The notes under the pieces were generated by a model that saw nothing but the letters and a program-made list of their open reading frames with translations, did no database searches and had not been told where the DNA came from. Of a stretch of 64,000 nt of DNA, positions 1-8,935 are shown piece by piece (within the stretch, counting starts at the first letter, position 1; every line of letters begins with the position of its first letter). The stretch spans positions 62,001 through 126,000 of the forward strand of contig NZ_JACNME010000003.1 in NCBI RefSeq assembly GCF_014270065.1, written 5' to 3'. The DNA is from Quadrisphaera sp. RL12-1S. Lineage in GTDB: Bacteria > Actinomycetota > Actinomycetes > Actinomycetales > Quadrisphaeraceae. Made by a program: the position numbers and the translations under genes.

Positions 1-1753
<1,753 letters not shown>

Positions 1754-1774: not shown

Positions 1775-2836
1775 TCAGGCCTCGGCGAGCACCTCGCCCA
1801 GCGCGTCGGCGGTGGCCCGCAGCCGTCCCAGCGCCGCGGCGGCGGCCGCGGGCGACAGGGCCGCGAGCCCCGTCGACGTCGTCACCACCACCTGGCCCAG
1901 CTGGGCCGCGGGCAGGCCGAGGTGGTCCCAGGGCGTGCGCACCGCGCTGATCAGCGCGGACACCTCCGGCAGGGCGGCACCGCCCGCGAGCGCCGGCACG
2001 TCGAGCACGCCGAGGTGCAGCTCGTGGCCCGCCTCGAGCGCCTCCGCCAGCTGCTCCCACACGGCGGTGCCCAGCGGCCGCGAGGCCGGGGCGGCCAGGA
2101 CGAGGGCGTCCGCCCCGGCGGTGCGCAGCAGCGGCCACACCCCGGCGGCTCCCGAGGGCCCCGCGGAGGACGACGACGAGGGGGCCGTGCAGCGCAGCGC
2201 GGTCCGCACGCCCGCGGCGCGCAGCGCACCGGTGAGGTCGCGCAGGCCGTCACGGGCCCGCTGGGCGTCGACGGCGCGCAGCCTGCCCCAGCCGCTGGCC
2301 GTGGGGACGCGCCCCTCCAGGACGGCGGGCAGCGACGGCTCGTCCACCTGGACCACCAGCTGCGCGCCGGGGACGAGCCGCTGCACGTCGGCCGCGTGCT
2401 GGAGCACGCCCTCCACGAGCGAGCCGAGCAGGTAGCGGGCGGCACCGTCGTCCACCACGGCGCGCTCGCCGCGCGGGAGCCACACCGAGGCCGCCAGGCT
2501 CCACGGGCCCACCACCTGCAGCTTCAACGGGCCGGCGTAGCCGTCGGCGGCCTCGGCGAGGGCGTCGAGGTCGGCCGTGCGCAGCGACGCGGCGCGCTGG
2601 GCGTCACGGCCGGGGTGGTCCACCAGGCGCCAGCCGACGGGCTGCAGGTCCACCGGCATGTCCACCAGCAGCGCCGCCGTGCGCCCGGTCGGGTCGGCCC
2701 CGGGGCCGCGGGCGGGCAGCTCGGGGGCGAAGGGCAGGTGGTCCCCGCCCAGCTCTCCGAGGACGGCGCGGGCGGCCTCCAGCGGGTGCTCCCCGGGCCA
2801 GGCCCCGGTGGCGGTGGCTCTGGGGCGCTCGCTCAT
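1775..2836 (-). CDS. MetE-like (cobalamin-independent methionine synthase family) protein
   Basis: This 353-residue protein belongs to the single-domain MetE/UROD-like barrel family found between mnmA and ligA in many actinobacteria. Support comes from the genomic position, the barrel motif VVQVDEPSLPAV and the late segment TTSTGLAALSP. Full MetE is about 750 residues, so this is only the catalytic half. From memory, relatives carry His-Cys (HCC-type) and a later Cys in a TCGLA-type motif as zinc ligands. Here the corresponding places read LRC (R215-C216) and STGLA (T322), so two of three ligands seem changed. It may therefore not be a methyltransferase of the usual kind. The ATG at 2836 is chosen; an open frame extends upstream to 3241 but runs into mnmA. 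Family call good, function uncertain. Confidence 0.75.
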   Translation of the reverse strand: MSERPRATATGAWPGEHPLEAARAVLGELGGDHLPFAPELPARGPGADPTGRTAALLVDMPVDLQPVGWRLVDHPGRDAQRAASLRTADLDALAEAADGYAGPLKLQVVGPWSLAASVWLPRGERAVVDDGAARYLLGSLVEGVLQHAADVQRLVPGAQLVVQVDEPSLPAVLEGRVPTASGWGRLRAVDAQRARDGLRDLTGALRAAGVRTALRCTAPSSSSSAGPSGAAGVWPLLRTAGADALVLAAPASRPLGTAVWEQLAEALEAGHELHLGVLDVPALAGGAALPEVSALISAVRTPWDHLGLPAAQLGQVVVTTSTGLAALSPAAAAAALGRLRATADALGEVLAEA

Positions 2837-3000: not shown

Positions 3001-4128
3001 TCAGGCGCGAGCCGGAACCCCGTCGCGCACGGCGGCGGCGAGGGTGGCCGAGCCCACCACGCGGGTGCCGTCGTAGAGGGCCAGCAGCTGCCCGGGGGCG
3101 ACACCGCGCGCGGGCTGGTCCAGCCGCACGCGCACGGTGCCGTCGTCGTCGACCTGCTCCACGGTGCAGGCCAGCTCCGCGCCGTGGGCGCGCACCTGCG
3201 CCCCCAGCCGCTGGCCCGGCTCCGGCGGCGGGCCGCACCACACGGCGCCGTCACCGGACAGGAGCTCCACGTCGAGGTCCTCGGCGGAGCCGACCACCAC
3301 GCGGCGCTCGGCCACGGACACCGAGAGCACGTACCGCGGCCTGCCGTCCGCAGCGGGCACACCCAGGCGCAGGCCGCGGCGCTGGCCGACCGTGTAGCCG
3401 GCGGCCCCGTCATGGGTGCCGACGGGGCGGCCGGCGGTGTCGACGACGTCGCCGGGCTGCCGGGCGCTCTCCGGCAGGCGGGCGCCGAGCCAGGCGCGGG
3501 TGTCGCCGTCGGGCACGAAGCAGATGTCGGTGCTGTCGGGCTTGTCGGCCAGCGCCAGGCCGCGCGCGGCGGCCTCGGCGCGCACCTCGTCCTTGCCCGT
3601 CGCGGTGCCCAGCGGGAACAGGGCCGTGGCCAGGCGCTGCGGCGGCAGCACCGCCAGCACGTAGGACTGGTCCTTGGCGAGGTCGTGGCTGCGGTGCAGC
3701 TCCCGGCCGCCGGTGGCCGTCCCCGGTCCGTCCTCCAGGCGCGCGTAGTGGCCGGTGGCCACGGCGTCGAAGCCCAGCGCCAGCGCGCGGTCGGCGAGGG
3801 CCGCGAACTTCACCTTCTGGTTGCAGCGCACGCACGGGTTGGGGGTGCGCCCGGCGGCGTACTCGGCCACGAAGTCGTCGACGACGTCCCGGCCGAAGCG
3901 CTCGGACAGGTCCCACACGTAGAACGGGACGCCGATGACGTCCGCGGCGCGCCGCGCGTCGCGGGAGTCCTCGACGGTGCAGCAGCCCCGGGCCCGTCCC
4001 GGGGTCGCGCTCGGGCTGGCGCTGGCCAGCGCCAGGTGGACCGCGACGACGTCGTGCCCCGCGTCCACCGCGCGGGCGGCGGCCACGGCGGAGTCGACGC
4101 CGCCGGACAGCGCGGCGAGCACCCTCAT
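3001..4128 (-). CDS. mnmA: tRNA-specific 2-thiouridylase MnmA
   Basis: MnmA (375 residues) puts sulfur on U34 of tRNAs for Lys, Glu and Gln in the cytoplasm. The PP-loop ATP-binding motif [11 protein letters not shown] is at residues 7-17. The catalytic cysteine sits in [10 protein letters not shown] (C102) and the second, persulfide-forming cysteine in TDICFVPDG (C203); both match the classical enzyme's positions closely. The C-terminal beta-barrel region ends with [16 protein letters not shown]. The ATG at 4128 is chosen because the PP-loop is always near the N-terminus; a longer open frame to 4203 overlaps the neighbour. It starts 10 nt after the stop of the cysteine desulfurase, its likely sulfur donor, so the two form a functional pair. 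Confidence 0.95.
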
Positions 4129-4138
4129 CGCGGCGCCC

Positions 4139-5332
4139 TCAGGAGCCCGCGAGCGCGAGGCCCGCGGTGCGGGCACGCTCGACGACGGGGCCGAGCACCT
4201 CACCGACCAGCGCCACGTCGGCGGCGGTGGAGGTGCGGCCCAGGCTGAAGCGCAGGGCCCCGGCGGCGTCGGCGTCGGACAGGCCCATGGCCCGCAGCAC
4301 GTGGCTGGGCTGGGGCACGCCGGCCGTGCACGCCGACCCGGTGGAGCACTCCACGCCGCGGGCGTCGAGCAGGTAGAGCAGGGCGTCGCCCTCGGCCCCC
4401 GGCACGGTGACGTGCAGGATCCCGGGCAGGCGGTCCTCCGGGCGGGAGGCGCCGCGGACCACGGCGTCGGGGACGGCGGCCAGCACCGCCGCCTCCAGCT
4501 GGTCCCGCAGCCCGCGCAGCGCCGGAGTGCGCTCGGCGAGGGTGTCGACGGCGGCGGTGGTGGCCACGGCCAGCCCGCGTGCGGCGGCGGCGTCGACGCT
4601 GCCGGAGCGGACCCCGCCCTCCTGGCCGCCGCCGTGCAGCACCGGCACGAGGGGGGTGCCGCGGCGCAGCACGAGGCCGCCCACGCCGGTGGTGCCGCCC
4701 AGCTTGTGCCCGGTGAAGGACAGCGCCGCCAGGCCCGAGGCGGCGAAGTCGACGGGGACCTGGCCGACGGCCTGCACCGCGTCGGAGTGCACGGGGACCC
4801 CGTGGCGGGCCGCCAGCTCGACCACCTCGGCGAGCGGCTGCAGGGTGCCGACCTCGTTGTTGGCCCACATGACGCTGACCAGGGCCACCGACGCCGGGTC
4901 GCGCTCGAGGGACTCGCGCAGCGCGTCCAGGCGCAGCCGGCCCTCGCCGTCCACGGGCAGCTCCTCCACCCGGGCGCCCAGGCCCGCGGGGTGCTCCCCC
5001 AGCCAGTGCGCCGGGTCGAGGACGCCGTGGTGCTCCACGGCCGAGACCAGCACGCGCGTGCGGCGCGGGTCCTCCCCGTGGCGGGCCCAGAAGAGGCCCT
5101 TCACGGCGAGGTTGTCGGACTCGGTGCCGCCGCCGGTGAGCACGACCTCGCCGGGACGTGCTCCCAGCGCGGCCGCGAGCTCCTCGCGGGACTCCTCCAC
5201 CACCCGCCGCGCGGCGCGCCCCGAGCTGTGCAGGGCGGAGGCGTTCCCCGAGCGGGTGAGCTCGGTGAGCATGGCCTCGGCCGCGGCGGGCAGCACGGGC
5301 GTGTCGGCAGCGTGGTCCAGGTACGCCGTCAC
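4139..5332 (-). CDS. iscS: cysteine desulfurase (NifS/IscS class)
   Basis: A 397-residue PLP enzyme of aminotransferase class V that takes sulfur from cysteine and carries it as a persulfide. Visible signatures are the N-terminal [12 protein letters not shown], the HH pair in VEHHGVLDP, the PLP-lysine motif SFTGHKLGG, and the active cysteine in STGSACTAG (about C335) close to an RFSLGR motif. The GTG at 5332 (MTAYLDHAA) is chosen because family members start just before this tyrosine; a longer frame to 5410 would run into the divergent glgX. It is directly followed by mnmA, which implies delivery of sulfur to tRNA thiolation. No iscU/iscA-type scaffold is nearby. The symbol iscS is by class; NifS-like is equally fair. 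Confidence 0.9.
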
Positions 5333-5369: not shown

Positions 5370-7814
5370 ATGACCAGCGCGAGCGCCACGTCGAGAGCAG
5401 CGGCGAGCACCCCCTCTGGCCCGGTGTCGAGCCCGGTGTCGAGCCCAGCGTCGAGCCCGGTGTCGAGCCCGGTGTCGAGCAGCGCACCGCCCCTGGGCGT
5501 GCGCCTGCACCCGGGAGGCGCCAGCGCCGCCGTCGTCGCGTCCCGCGCCGACGCGGTGGCGGTCTGCCTCCTCGACGACGACGGCGCCGGCGGCTGGAGC
5601 GAGCGGCGCGTGCCGCTGACCCGCCGTCCCGGCGGCCTGTGGACCGGTGACCTCCCGGGCGTGCGCGCCGGCCAGCGCTACGGGCTGCGCGTCGACGGCC
5701 CGTGGGACCCCGCCGCGGGGCTGCGGCACGACCCGGCGAAGCTGCTGCTGGACCCGCACGCCCTCGCCGTCGACGGCGAGCTGCGGTGGGGCCCGGAGCT
5801 GTTCGCGCACGAGGTCAGCGGGCCGCAGTGGCTGCCGCTGGACGCCTCGCCGGCCGCGCAGCGGCGCAGCGGCCTGGACAGCGCCGGCAGCGCGCCCGTC
5901 GGCGTCGTCCTCGAAGCACCCGTGGCCGACCAGGCCGCACGCCCGCGCACCCCGTGGTCGCGCACGGTGGTCTACGAGGCGCACCTGCGCGGCCTCACGA
6001 TGCTGCACCCCGACGTCCCGCCGGAGCTGCGCGGCACCTGGGCGGGCCTGGCGCACCCCGCCGTCGTCGAGCACCTGACCCGGCTGGGCGTCACGGCGGT
6101 CGAGCTGCTGCCGGTGCAGGCGATCGGCACGGAGATCTCGCTGGCCCGGCGCGGCCAGGCCAACTACTGGGGATACTCCACGCTGAGCTGGTTCGCGCCC
6201 GAGCCTCGCTACGCCACCGCGGCCGCGCGCGCCGCGGGGCCGGCGGCGGTGCTCGCCGAGGTGCGCGACGCCGTCGCCGCGTTGCACGCGGCGGGCCTGG
6301 AGGTGCTCCTCGACGTCGTCTACAACCACTCCTGCGAGGGCCACGCCCACGACGGGCCGAGCCTCTCGCTGCGCGGCATCGACTCCGCCGGCTACTACCG
6401 CCTGGACGGTTCCGGCCGCGACGTCGACTCCACCGGCTGCGGCAACAGCCTCGACTTCGGGCGGCCGCAGTGCGTGCGCCTGGCGATGGACTCGCTGCGG
6501 CACTGGGTGACGGCGTTCGGCGTGGACGGCTTCCGGTTCGACCTGGCGCCCACGCTCGGCCGCGGCCTGGACGGCGCCTACCGGCCCGACGCGCCGCTGC
6601 TGCTCGCGATGGGCGCCGACCCCGTGCTGTCCGACGTCAAGCTGGTCTCCGAGCCGTGGGACCTCGGGCCGGACGGGTGGCGCACGGGTGACTTCCCACA
6701 GCCGTTCGCGGAGTGGAACGACAGGTTCCGCGACGGCGCCCGGGAGTTCTGGCTGGCCGTGCCGGGGCGCGCCTCGCGCGGGGAGCCCACCGGCTCGGGC
6801 CTGGGCGAGCTGGCCCTGCGCCTGACCGGCTCCGCGGACCTGTTCGGCGGCGGCCCGGGCGACCGCGGGCCGATGGCGTCGGTGAGCTTCGTGACCGCGC
6901 ACGACGGCTTCACGCTGGCCGACGCGTGCGCGTTCGACCACAAGCACAACCTCGCCAACGGCGAGGACAACCGGGACGGCACGGACTCCAACCGGTCCTG
7001 GAACCACGGCATGGAGGGCTGGCCCGGGGAGGGCGGCACCGCCGCCGGTCCGCTCGCCGACCCGGCCGACGAGCAGGCGGGGTTCGCCGTCGACCCCGAC
7101 GAGCTCATGGTGACCGCCCTGCGGCGCCGCTCCATGCGCAACCTGCTGGCCACGCTGGTGCTGTCCGCCGGCGTGCCGATGCTCACCGCCGGTGACGAGC
7201 TGGGCAGGTCCCAGGGCGGCAACAACAACCCGTACTGCCTCGACGACGAGACCTCGTGGGTCGACTGGCACCTGGCGCCCTGGCAGCAGCACCTGCTGGA
7301 GACCACCCGGCAGCTGCTGGCGCTGCGCGCGCAGCACCCCGTGCTGCACGCCGAGCAGCCGCCCCGCCCGGCCCGCGCGGCCGCGGTGCCCGGCGCTCCG
7401 CAGCTGACCTGGTGGGACGCCGAGGGCGGCCCGATGGACCCCGAGGACTGGCAGGACCCCCAGAACCGCACCGTGCAGGTGCACCTGGGCGCCGCGCAGA
7501 CCAGCGGGGAGGACCTGCTGCTCGTCCTCGCCGGGGACCTCGACGACGGCGACCTCGTGCTGCCGCCGCAGCCGGGCGTGGCGGGCTACCGGCTGCTGTG
7601 GGACAGCGCCGTGGAGCGCTACCCCGCGGGCGCCCTGGGAGCGCTGGACGCGGTGGGCACGACGGTGCCCGTCAGCGCGCTCTCGACCCGGTTGTACCGG
7701 CCGGTCACCTCACCTCAGGACGACGACGCGGACGCCGACGCTGCCGCCGTCGTCGTCGAGCCGGCCGAGGGCCAGACGACCGCGCCGTCGGAGCCGACCA
7801 CGGCCCGCAGGTAG
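5370..7814 (+). CDS. glgX: glycogen debranching enzyme GlgX (GH13)
   Basis: This 814-residue enzyme cleaves alpha-1,6 branches in glycogen after phosphorylase has trimmed them. An N-terminal CBM48-like part (GVRLHPGG to about residue 150) is followed by the GH13 barrel: DVVYNHS, GFRFDLAP with nucleophile D391, SEPWDLG with acid/base E428, and VTAHDGFTL with D512. The ATG at 5370 leaves 37 nt to the divergent cysteine desulfurase start. Before the conserved part, residues 18-38 are a low-complexity SSPV repeat encoded by five 12-bp units, and several repeats contain in-frame GTG codons that could be the real start. The last 100 nt overlap the convergent ABC-receptor gene, encoding an acidic tail not expected in the family. 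Identity firm, both ends less so. Confidence 0.92.
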   Translation: MTSASATSRAAASTPSGPVSSPVSSPASSPVSSPVSSSAPPLGVRLHPGGASAAVVASRADAVAVCLLDDDGAGGWSERRVPLTRRPGGLWTGDLPGVRAGQRYGLRVDGPWDPAAGLRHDPAKLLLDPHALAVDGELRWGPELFAHEVSGPQWLPLDASPAAQRRSGLDSAGSAPVGVVLEAPVADQAARPRTPWSRTVVYEAHLRGLTMLHPDVPPELRGTWAGLAHPAVVEHLTRLGVTAVELLPVQAIGTEISLARRGQANYWGYSTLSWFAPEPRYATAAARAAGPAAVLAEVRDAVAALHAAGLEVLLDVVYNHSCEGHAHDGPSLSLRGIDSAGYYRLDGSGRDVDSTGCGNSLDFGRPQCVRLAMDSLRHWVTAFGVDGFRFDLAPTLGRGLDGAYRPDAPLLLAMGADPVLSDVKLVSEPWDLGPDGWRTGDFPQPFAEWNDRFRDGAREFWLAVPGRASRGEPTGSGLGELALRLTGSADLFGGGPGDRGPMASVSFVTAHDGFTLADACAFDHKHNLANGEDNRDGTDSNRSWNHGMEGWPGEGGTAAGPLADPADEQAGFAVDPDELMVTALRRRSMRNLLATLVLSAGVPMLTAGDELGRSQGGNNNPYCLDDETSWVDWHLAPWQQHLLETTRQLLALRAQHPVLHAEQPPRPARAAAVPGAPQLTWWDAEGGPMDPEDWQDPQNRTVQVHLGAAQTSGEDLLLVLAGDLDDGDLVLPPQPGVAGYRLLWDSAVERYPAGALGALDAVGTTVPVSALSTRLYRPVTSPQDDDADADAAAVVVEPAEGQTTAPSEPTTARR
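5423..5482 (+). repeat. five-copy 12-bp tandem repeat in the 5' end of glgX
   Basis: Five consecutive 12-bp units with consensus GGTGTCGAGCCC; the third reads AGC for its first three bases and the last ends in CAG. Being a multiple of three, loss or gain of a unit keeps the frame and only changes the length of the SSPV linker. Units 1, 2, 4 and 5 each contain an in-frame GTG. Confidence 0.9.
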
Positions 7815-8866
7815 GAGTCGTCGAAGACGCTGGTCGGGTCCGGGACGCTCTTCAGCTCCCCGGACCCGACCAGCACCTGGCCCTCCGCGGTCAGCGCGGC
7901 CGGGTCGACGAAGCCGATCGGCTGGCCGGCCGGGGTGGAGCTGGCCACGAGCTTCGACTCGGTGGTGAAGACCTGCTCGTTGTGGGTCACGTCGAACCCG
8001 CTGCCGGACTTCTCCGCCGCCGCCTGCACGCACTGCTGCAGCTGGGTCTGGCAGACCTCGTGGGCGTGCAGCAGCGCCCGGACGAAGTCCTGCACGGCGG
8101 TGGGGTGGGCCTTCGCGAAGGCGGGGTTGGCGATGAGCTGCCCGAAGGAGCCGGTCACCCCGTAGTCCTCGGGGTTCCACTGCGTGACCTGGTCACCCAT
8201 CGCCGCCAGCGTGAGCGGCTCGTTGGACTTGTAGCCGGTGAGGGACTGCACCTGGCCGCGCACGAGCACGGTCGGGTCGTAGCCGACCTTGACCTGGGTG
8301 ATCGACCCCAGGTCCACCCCGGCCGTGACGAGCATGGCCCTCAGCGGCGCCGGGAGGCTCCCCTTGTGGCCCAGCGTGGTGCCGTCGAGCTGCTTGAGGT
8401 CGGTCACGCTCGGCTCGGTCATGAGCGTGGCGATCGGCACGTGGCCGAACGTCGCGACCCCGACGACGTCGGCTCCCCCGGCCACCGCGAGCATCGCCTC
8501 GGCCGCGCTGCCGACACCGGACAGCTGGGCCCGGCCCGCGGCGGTGAGCTGCGCGCCCTGCGCGGTGTCGCCGGAGCCGGGCTGCAGCTGCACGTCGAGG
8601 CAGACGTCCTTGAAGAACCCCATCGACTCCGCCGCGACGGCCTCGAGGATGGTCGTGGACGCCTGGTACTGGTACCCCGTGAGGTAGGTGACCGTGCCGG
8701 CGTCGCGGTTCTTCGCGCAGCGGTCGGCGTCGATGACGCCGCTGCCGCTCGCCGTCGCCCCCTGGCCCGGGGCTGGTGAGGAGCCCGAGCAGGCGGACAG
8801 CAGGAGCACGGCGGTGCAGGCGGCCGCCAGGGCGCCGAGGGCGGAGCGGCGTCGGAGCGTGGTCAC
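7715..8866 (-). CDS. ABC transporter substrate-binding lipoprotein (NMT1/THI5-like, SsuA family)
   Basis: A 383-residue extracytoplasmic solute receptor. The N-terminus is a lipoprotein signal (basic MTTLRRR, hydrophobic core, lipobox LLSAC), and the mature protein has the NMT1-like pattern: YLTGYQYQASTTILEAVAAE, the FFKDVCLDVQL element and GVATFGHVPIATLM. This family brings in sulfonates, nitrate, taurine or pyrimidine thiamine precursors; the ligand cannot be read here. GTG at 8866 is preferred because it gives a standard signal peptide; GTG at 8890 is possible. It is the last gene of a minus-strand unit with the permease and ATPase, separated from them by a kinase gene and a small ORF. Its last 100 nt overlap glgX on the other strand, giving a Ser/Ala tail. 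Confidence 0.8.
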   Translation of the reverse strand: MTTLRRRSALGALAAACTAVLLLSACSGSSPAPGQGATASGSGVIDADRCAKNRDAGTVTYLTGYQYQASTTILEAVAAESMGFFKDVCLDVQLQPGSGDTAQGAQLTAAGRAQLSGVGSAAEAMLAVAGGADVVGVATFGHVPIATLMTEPSVTDLKQLDGTTLGHKGSLPAPLRAMLVTAGVDLGSITQVKVGYDPTVLVRGQVQSLTGYKSNEPLTLAAMGDQVTQWNPEDYGVTGSFGQLIANPAFAKAHPTAVQDFVRALLHAHEVCQTQLQQCVQAAAEKSGSGFDVTHNEQVFTTESKLVASSTPAGQPIGFVDPAALTAEGQVLVGSGELKSVPDPTSVFDDSYLRAVVGSDGAVVWPSAGSTTTAAASASASSS

Positions 8867-8935
8867 GCGCCTGATTGTCGGGCCTCGCACCGCTGCGCGG
8901 CTTCCGACCGGTCGCAGCGGGGTCTCCGCGGGCGA

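Follow-up and report, generated by a model that had tools for sequence, protein, structure and literature searches.

Loss of the zinc site in a retained single-barrel MetE-like protein of Quadrisphaera

The MetE-like gene, its neighbours and its fold

The window, i.e. the whole 64,000-nucleotide stretch of Quadrisphaera sp. RL12-1S DNA that was analysed, opens with a run of genes on one strand, arranged as iscS-mnmA-MetE-like-CPBP-ligA, which fits the actinobacterial mnmA-ligA family order. The gene under study (1775..2836, minus strand, with the ATG at 2836 and the TGA at 1775-1777) encodes a single-barrel protein of 353 aa, similar to the C-terminal part of MetE. A MetE-like gene had been reported here, with no strand given, in a preliminary description; its presence was confirmed by a match to PF01717 (MetE catalytic domain, Meth_synt_2) of 22.1 bits, slightly more than the cut-off of 21, and a genome-wide PF01717 search gave 21.9 bits. 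Upstream lie mnmA, encoding the tRNA 2-thiouridine synthase (3001..4128, minus strand; NCBIfam NF001138, 375.7 bits, cut-off 284), and, preceding it, a gene for an IscS/NifS-type cysteine desulfurase (4139..5329, minus strand; PF00266, 7.3e-51), whose TIGR03402 score of 360 bits is under the cut-off of that model, 530.75. Downstream, a CPBP/Rce1-like membrane protease is encoded (878..1753, minus strand; PF02517, 28.9 bits), followed by the N-terminal part of ligA, the NAD-dependent DNA ligase (1..840, minus strand), a stop-free frame named by sequence reading.

Further into the window, a 12-nt tandem repeat, GCCCGGTGTCGA, is present in 5.2 copies at 5419-5480 (plus strand), close to the start of an ORF which by reading is GlgX-like; in the GlgX-like frame it reads as a Ser/Pro-rich run and could give a length-variable N-terminus. 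The ORF at 7715-8890 (minus strand) has a lipoprotein-like start, LLLSACSG, and by reading resembles an ABC-transporter solute-binding protein. A defence association was rejected, as PADLOC gave no match.

The 353-aa protein falls outside MetE proper, as defined by TIGR01371 (two barrels, 754 profile positions, cut-off 929.95 bits), since it has one barrel and is too short. Among NCBIfam models no match was found at E <= 1 other than a ribosomal S8 model (E 0.21), the uroporphyrinogen decarboxylase family is absent from the Pfam matches at E <= 1, and single-sequence searches for solved relatives returned nothing at E <= 10. Identity to the 67 other proteins in the alignment ranges from 33 to 92%, the closest named relatives being Quadrisphaera proteins (80-86%) and an orthologue (92%) on a record labelled Streptomyces sp. 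NP160 (NZ_VDMJ01000009.1); the species name on this record is probably wrong. A protein search of the host genome gave a single copy of the orthologue, and a second, zinc-intact one was therefore rejected; the other PF01717 relatives of this genome are MesD and a contig 6 protein which, by sequence reading, keeps H..C, E and C.

The barrel had been described as intact, and structure prediction agrees: the AlphaFold model shows a MetE-type barrel with a pLDDT of 94.7 and a pTM of 0.93. Its best PDB match is MesD (3rpd; Z 24.6, rmsd 3.2 over 282 residues), followed by MetE (Z up to 23.0) and uroporphyrinogen decarboxylase (UroD; Z up to 19.4). The model of a zinc-intact orthologue (pLDDT 95.9) gave comparable values, with a Z of 23.5 and an rmsd of 3.2 over 282 residues for 3rpd, and a Z of up to 18.9 for UroD. 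The resemblance to UroD concerns the overall barrel, with 8-15% identity; UroD is active without metal and is not known to have a zinc site. With MetE the protein shares the fold of the C-terminal catalytic barrel and the QxDEP motif, but MetE is a zinc-binding protein of about 750 residues and two barrels, while the Quadrisphaera protein has one barrel and none of the ligands. MesD is likewise a single barrel, but is only 15% identical to the Quadrisphaera protein, keeps its zinc and substrate residues and requires MesX (PMC7857596).

Two groups of relatives described in literature are relevant. Rv3015c is a single-domain MetE-like protein, common in actinomycetes and of unclear activity (PMC4428469), and appears to be orthologous to the mnmA-ligA family; the family resembles the present protein in consisting of one MetE-type catalytic barrel, widespread in the class and often encoded between mnmA and ligA. 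Zinc residues are replaced (FSHG, YCDQ, YREQ) in the MesB-like proteins of Chloroflexales, for which another function has been proposed (PMC7857596), so that zinc-less MetE-type barrels are already known in kind. Those proteins belong to another phylum and family and are set apart by description, whereas the losses reported below, about six, fall within one class. The literature searched yielded no study of mnmA-linked proteins that lack the zinc site, nor anything more on the enzymatic function of the family.

Mapping of the zinc site

In E. coli MetE the zinc ligands are H641, C643, E665 and C726 (PMC7857596). Their positions were mapped mainly by two MAFFT alignments including the E. coli sequence, taken from the NC_000913 record, one with 65 and one with 215 orthologues. 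Both alignments place the four ligands, in this order, at R215 (2192..2194), T217 (2186..2188), A248 (2093..2095), where orthologues mostly have Asp, and T322 (1871..1873), all on the minus strand, and hence all four are gone. The loss noticed in the preliminary description is thereby borne out and extended. Two of the positions named there, R215 and T322, were right; C216 had been taken for a ligand position but is adjacent to the ligand column, the motif being H-C-C in typical relatives, with its second Cys, at 217, as the ligand, and A248 had been overlooked. The same columns were aligned in a profile search of PDB sequences, where Candida MetE was a weak match (E 0.19), and by hhalign, with low probabilities, against E. 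coli MetE (16%) and the MesD of the same genome (19%).

Six distinct Quadrisphaera-type sequences are devoid of any ligand, with R215 and T322 in 6/6, T or A at 217 and A or S at 248, and a sequencing error or a single-strain oddity was rejected on these grounds. That the zinc site is lost in the Quadrisphaera protein is nearly certain, and zinc-dependent thiol activation, as had been argued, would not be expected of it. A replacement metal site is not visible in the zinc-less proteins: the alignment places no ligands elsewhere, and His147 (58 of 87 sequences) is the only column with Cys or His in at least half of them. C216, the sole cysteine of the protein, is Cys in five of the six Quadrisphaera-type sequences, and the L058 orthologue has no cysteine at all. 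Active methyltransferases among zinc-less relatives were looked for in the literature searched, and none was found.

Other residues of the catalytic site were affected unequally. In the alignment of 215, the column of MetE S433, which binds homocysteine (PMC7857596), is occupied by A12 (2801..2803, minus strand). D165, corresponding to the likewise homocysteine-binding MetE D599, is kept; it forms with E166 part of the QxDEP motif (2339..2344, minus strand), and E166, aligned with MetE E600, is Glu in 215/215 orthologues. MetE E484 falls on a non-conserved column, and E39 is a candidate equivalent, being Glu at a frequency of 1.00 (rounded) in the 128 proteins retaining at least three ligands versus 29% of those that lost the site. 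After the former ligand strand, a Ser/Gly/Ala-rich loop (residues 221-232 approximately; 2141..2176, minus strand) is modelled with low confidence (57); it corresponds to a gap in zinc-intact orthologues and varies in length among Quadrisphaera sequences.

Recurrence of the loss and its genomic context

Of 197 class genomes, 169 gave a match to the MetE-like family. The genomes represent a sample, and sequences were taken from part of 168 gene-bearing order genomes and 169 class genomes; from 245 matched loci, 215 distinct orthologues were counted after removing duplicates and contained sequences. All four ligands are kept in 125 of them, three in 3, two in 15, one in 33 and none in 39, i.e. 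87/215 retain two or fewer and are referred to as zinc-less. The earlier statement that relatives usually keep the site thus holds: the usual member of the Rv3015c-type family, and intact orthologues normally, carry H-C-D-C together with the Ser of the S433 column, all of which the Quadrisphaera protein has lost. This Ser is present in 125/125 intact and 3/3 three-ligand proteins versus 4/87 zinc-less ones, and the Asp of the D599 column in 125/125 intact versus 42/87 zinc-less proteins.

The loss had been presented as if peculiar to this protein, which proved incorrect. In a gene tree from which the ligand columns had been left out, six maximal zinc-less clades are seen, implying about six losses: Quadrisphaera with the genera g119 and g120; L010, alone in a genus with three intact members; family f14, which includes Kineococcus (L009 is identical to the named L066); L024, in family f18; L219; and a large clade of families f6, f7, f8 and others. 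A MnmA tree of 130 taxa, from which f14 and L024 are absent and in which the large clade is split in two, indicates five losses. The clades carry differing replacements, such as RTAT, APPG, HGDP and SPPE. H215 is changed to Arg in four of the six, in 22 sequences (L001, L010, L024, L082 and f14 loci), one of which belongs to the large clade; the Arg codons are CGC or CGG, derived from CAC/CAT, and the repeated change may reflect only the easiest mutation.

Some proteins may record intermediate states. L022 and L023, both of f18, and L045 have altered zinc sites (HCPC, HCPC and HCNC, respectively) and yet keep the substrate Ser; judging from these residues, they are possible early stages of the loss. 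L112, L113, L178 and L219 are the sole four of the 87 zinc-less proteins with the substrate Ser, which hints that the metal site was lost first and the Ser later.

The zinc state was compared with the methionine synthases encoded by 114 genomes, namely 34 of the 37 gene-bearing genomes of the order sample and 80 chosen ones, of which 84 are intact, 27 zinc-less and 3 three-ligand; the gene-bearing G011, G046 and G058, with no sequence in the set, are omitted. MetH was found in 76/84 intact versus 7/27 zinc-less genomes, MetE in 16/84 versus 17/27, and MetE without MetH in none of the intact and 12 of the zinc-less ones. In this count, G025 and G042, whose MetE matches sit at two separate places, were scored MetE-positive, while MetH-negative were scored G099, G081, G131 and G178, which have partial MetH matches only, and G078, G239, G149 and G072, which have no match, three of these four being less than 80% complete. 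The Fisher test for MetH against zinc state gives p 2.7e-10, computed on raw counts, with kinship ignored and few independent events. Three losses occurred in MetH-less lineages (the Quadrisphaera clade, L010 and f14), the large clade is mixed, and the L024 and L219 genomes have MetH. As a lead, these counts therefore suggest that the intact protein tends to co-occur with B12-dependent methionine synthesis, and that the catalytic site tends to go where this is absent. In the host genome neither a full MetE nor MetH was found, and for this reason its methionine synthesis may depend mainly on MesD/MesX; an adjacent MesX-MesD pair is located outside the window, on contig 3 at about 168000-170100 (L071; PF08908, 537 bits; NF006589, 627 bits, cut-off 392).

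Linkage to mnmA is largely shared by intact and zinc-less genes. Among loci with at least 1500 nt upstream, 61/78 intact and 48/65 zinc-less ones are preceded by mnmA on the same strand, with family values of 19/19 for f8, 9/10 for f7, 4/4 for f13, 0/5 for f14 and 9/19 for f6. All 37 gene-bearing genomes have MnmA, in 36 over the cut-off and in G033 split over two contigs. The hypothesis that MnmA needs the MetE-like protein was rejected, as 16 of the 22 gene-less genomes of the first order sample have MnmA over the cut-off; the converse dependence, MnmA being required by the MetE-like protein, is compatible with the data. Six genomes (G002, G003, G020, G037, G040 and G053) have neither MnmA over the cut-off nor the MetE-like gene; some of the six are small or incomplete genomes, G040 for instance being 73% complete. 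At the other side of the gene, and within the flanking DNA examined for each locus, a CPBP/Rce1-like relative adjoins 6/87 zinc-less versus 0/125 intact genes.

Constraint on the zinc-less proteins and possible interpretations

Fifty positions are conserved in at least 93% of the 125 intact orthologues, and the Quadrisphaera protein differs at 10 of them, including all four ligands and Ser12. The enrichment of ligands among the departing positions has a hypergeometric probability of 9e-4, or 1.2e-4 when Ser12 is added. For a comparison among clades, eight site positions (12, 39, 105, 165, 215, 217, 248 and 322), in which E39 and K105 were included as they fall together with the ligands, were set against the remaining 42. 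The kept fractions, site versus others, are 0.38 versus 0.92 for Quadrisphaera with g119 and g120 (8 sequences), 0.50 versus 1.00 for L010, 0.18 versus 0.93 for f14, 0.25 versus 0.81 for L024, 0.62 versus 0.95 for L219, 0.29 versus 0.79 for f6, 0.20 versus 0.77 for f8, 0.09 versus 0.65 for f7 and 0.09 versus 0.71 for f11-13. W69 (2630..2632, minus strand) and E166 are found in all members (100%) of all zinc-less clades.

The case is one of real active-site loss in a retained protein, i.e. a pseudoenzyme-type variant of a known family, and the present task of the Quadrisphaera protein is probably different from the methyl transfer that its relatives would be expected to carry out. Each of the roles suggested for it earlier, another reaction or that of a regulator or scaffold, would fit a retained protein. 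The gene is the Quadrisphaera orthologue of the actinobacterial single-barrel MetE-like family often found between mnmA and ligA. The ancestral site would have been complete. By the DSSP strings of the models, strand 5 carries its H-x-C, strand 6 ends with its D and strand 8 is directly followed by its C, while the substrate residues are a Ser behind strand 1 and a D with which strand 4 ends; ancestral members were probably zinc-dependent thiol methyltransferases tied to B12-dependent methionine metabolism. The site would have been dismantled in the ancestor of Quadrisphaera and its two sister genera, all without MetH. With the metal ligands and the substrate Ser gone, zinc-dependent methyl transfer to thiols has very probably been lost as a consequence. 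The barrel, the locus behind mnmA and mostly N-half residues (G68-W69, G110-P111, D129, E166, G175, S181-G182) are kept under purifying selection, and this conservation makes it likely that the protein is retained for some other function. A zinc-independent job of this kind would predate the loss and be shared with the enzyme, the binding of a small ligand or a protein partner being its most likely form. Taken as a whole, the explanation that the site was dismantled while a zinc-independent, non-methyltransferase job was kept is rather likely; any particular role, such as that of a MnmA/IscS partner, is doubtful. The presence of D165 and E39, residues of the substrate-site type, in the Quadrisphaera protein speaks against this explanation, and so do the incomplete synteny with mnmA, the weaker selection in some zinc-less clades, the families in which the gene had no match and the presence of MnmA in gene-less genomes.

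Its main rival, slow decay, assumes that the zinc enzyme became dispensable after the loss of MetH, or in the presence of another methionine synthase, and that the gene lingers behind mnmA, the seeming constraint being due to recent ancestry, fold constraint and GC bias. The accompaniment of zinc loss by MetH absence is in line with this view, and so is the distribution of the gene. In the first order sample it had no match in f3 (0/4), f4 (0/4), f9 (0/3), f19 (0/3) and f20 (0/3), where a profile search gave one weak match (E 2e-4), and families devoid of the gene fit gradual decay; f12 had 1/2 and f13 0/3, divergent copies being later detected by profile search in some f13 genomes. It is present, however, in all sampled genomes of the zinc-less families f6 (4/4), f7 (4/4), f8 (3/3), f11 (3/3) and f14 (3/3), and the loss must be old, because whole families are covered by it. 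Median dN/dS values, roughly estimated by the Nei-Gojobori method from pairs with a dS of 0.05-2 only, point both ways: selection is clearly weaker in the zinc-less f7 (0.57) and f8 g121 (0.47), but Quadrisphaera (0.21; N-half 0.127, C-half 0.297) and f6 g7 (0.18) resemble the four intact groups (0.20-0.31), f14 and f8 g9 being at 0.32 and 0.26. The stronger conservation of the N-half was rejected as a mark of zinc loss, since the ratios are similar in intact groups. Decay is also argued against by the 92% of the 42 non-site positions kept in the Quadrisphaera clade, by the invariance of W69 and E166, and by the lack of internal stops among the matches listed in the order-level searches. It may well be correct for f7 and part of f8; as an account of the Quadrisphaera protein, it is unlikely.

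A further possibility, judged quite improbable, is that a new, UroD-like, metal-free chemistry has been acquired, with R215 and D165/E166 forming an active site for an anionic substrate. That UroD is the next structural neighbour, for the models of both the zinc-less and the intact protein, and is metal-free would agree with this, as would the replacement of H215 by Arg in four of the six losses and the invariance of E166. The replacements differ among clades, however, and reveal no new site that the clades share; residue 217 varies between T and A even inside Quadrisphaera; and one transition suffices to turn His CAC into Arg CGC, so that the convergence may be mutational. A methyltransferase that is still active, binding zinc through other residues or not needing it, is extremely unlikely: D165 and E39 are retained, and some ligand changes (Asn, His, Tyr) are deemed compatible with zinc (PMC7857596), but the ligand positions are R, T, A and T, the substrate Ser is gone too, the single Cys is missing in one Quadrisphaera sequence, and only His147 is a shared Cys/His column.

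Returning to the retained, zinc-independent job, a more specific and rather doubtful version of it would assign to the barrel two functions that can be separated. One, the zinc-dependent transfer of methyl groups to thiols, would be linked to B12-dependent methionine synthesis and would have been given up about six times, in lineages in which MetH had been lost or had become dispensable; the other, older and independent of zinc, might for example serve the thiolation of tRNA or the handling of sulfur together with IscS/MnmA, and would be exerted via W69, E166, D129 and mostly R52. Quadrisphaera would then have the second function only, and, if this were true, the zinc-less lineages would amount to naturally occurring separation-of-function mutants of a family described as unclear in its role.

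Most of the actinomycetes sampled have a member of the parent family, which is often annotated as a MetE homologue; on zinc-less copies, a methionine-synthase label is unsupported. The association with MetH provides an initial clue to the activity of the intact enzyme, and the recurrent, site-specific loss indicates that part of the role of the family may not need zinc chemistry.
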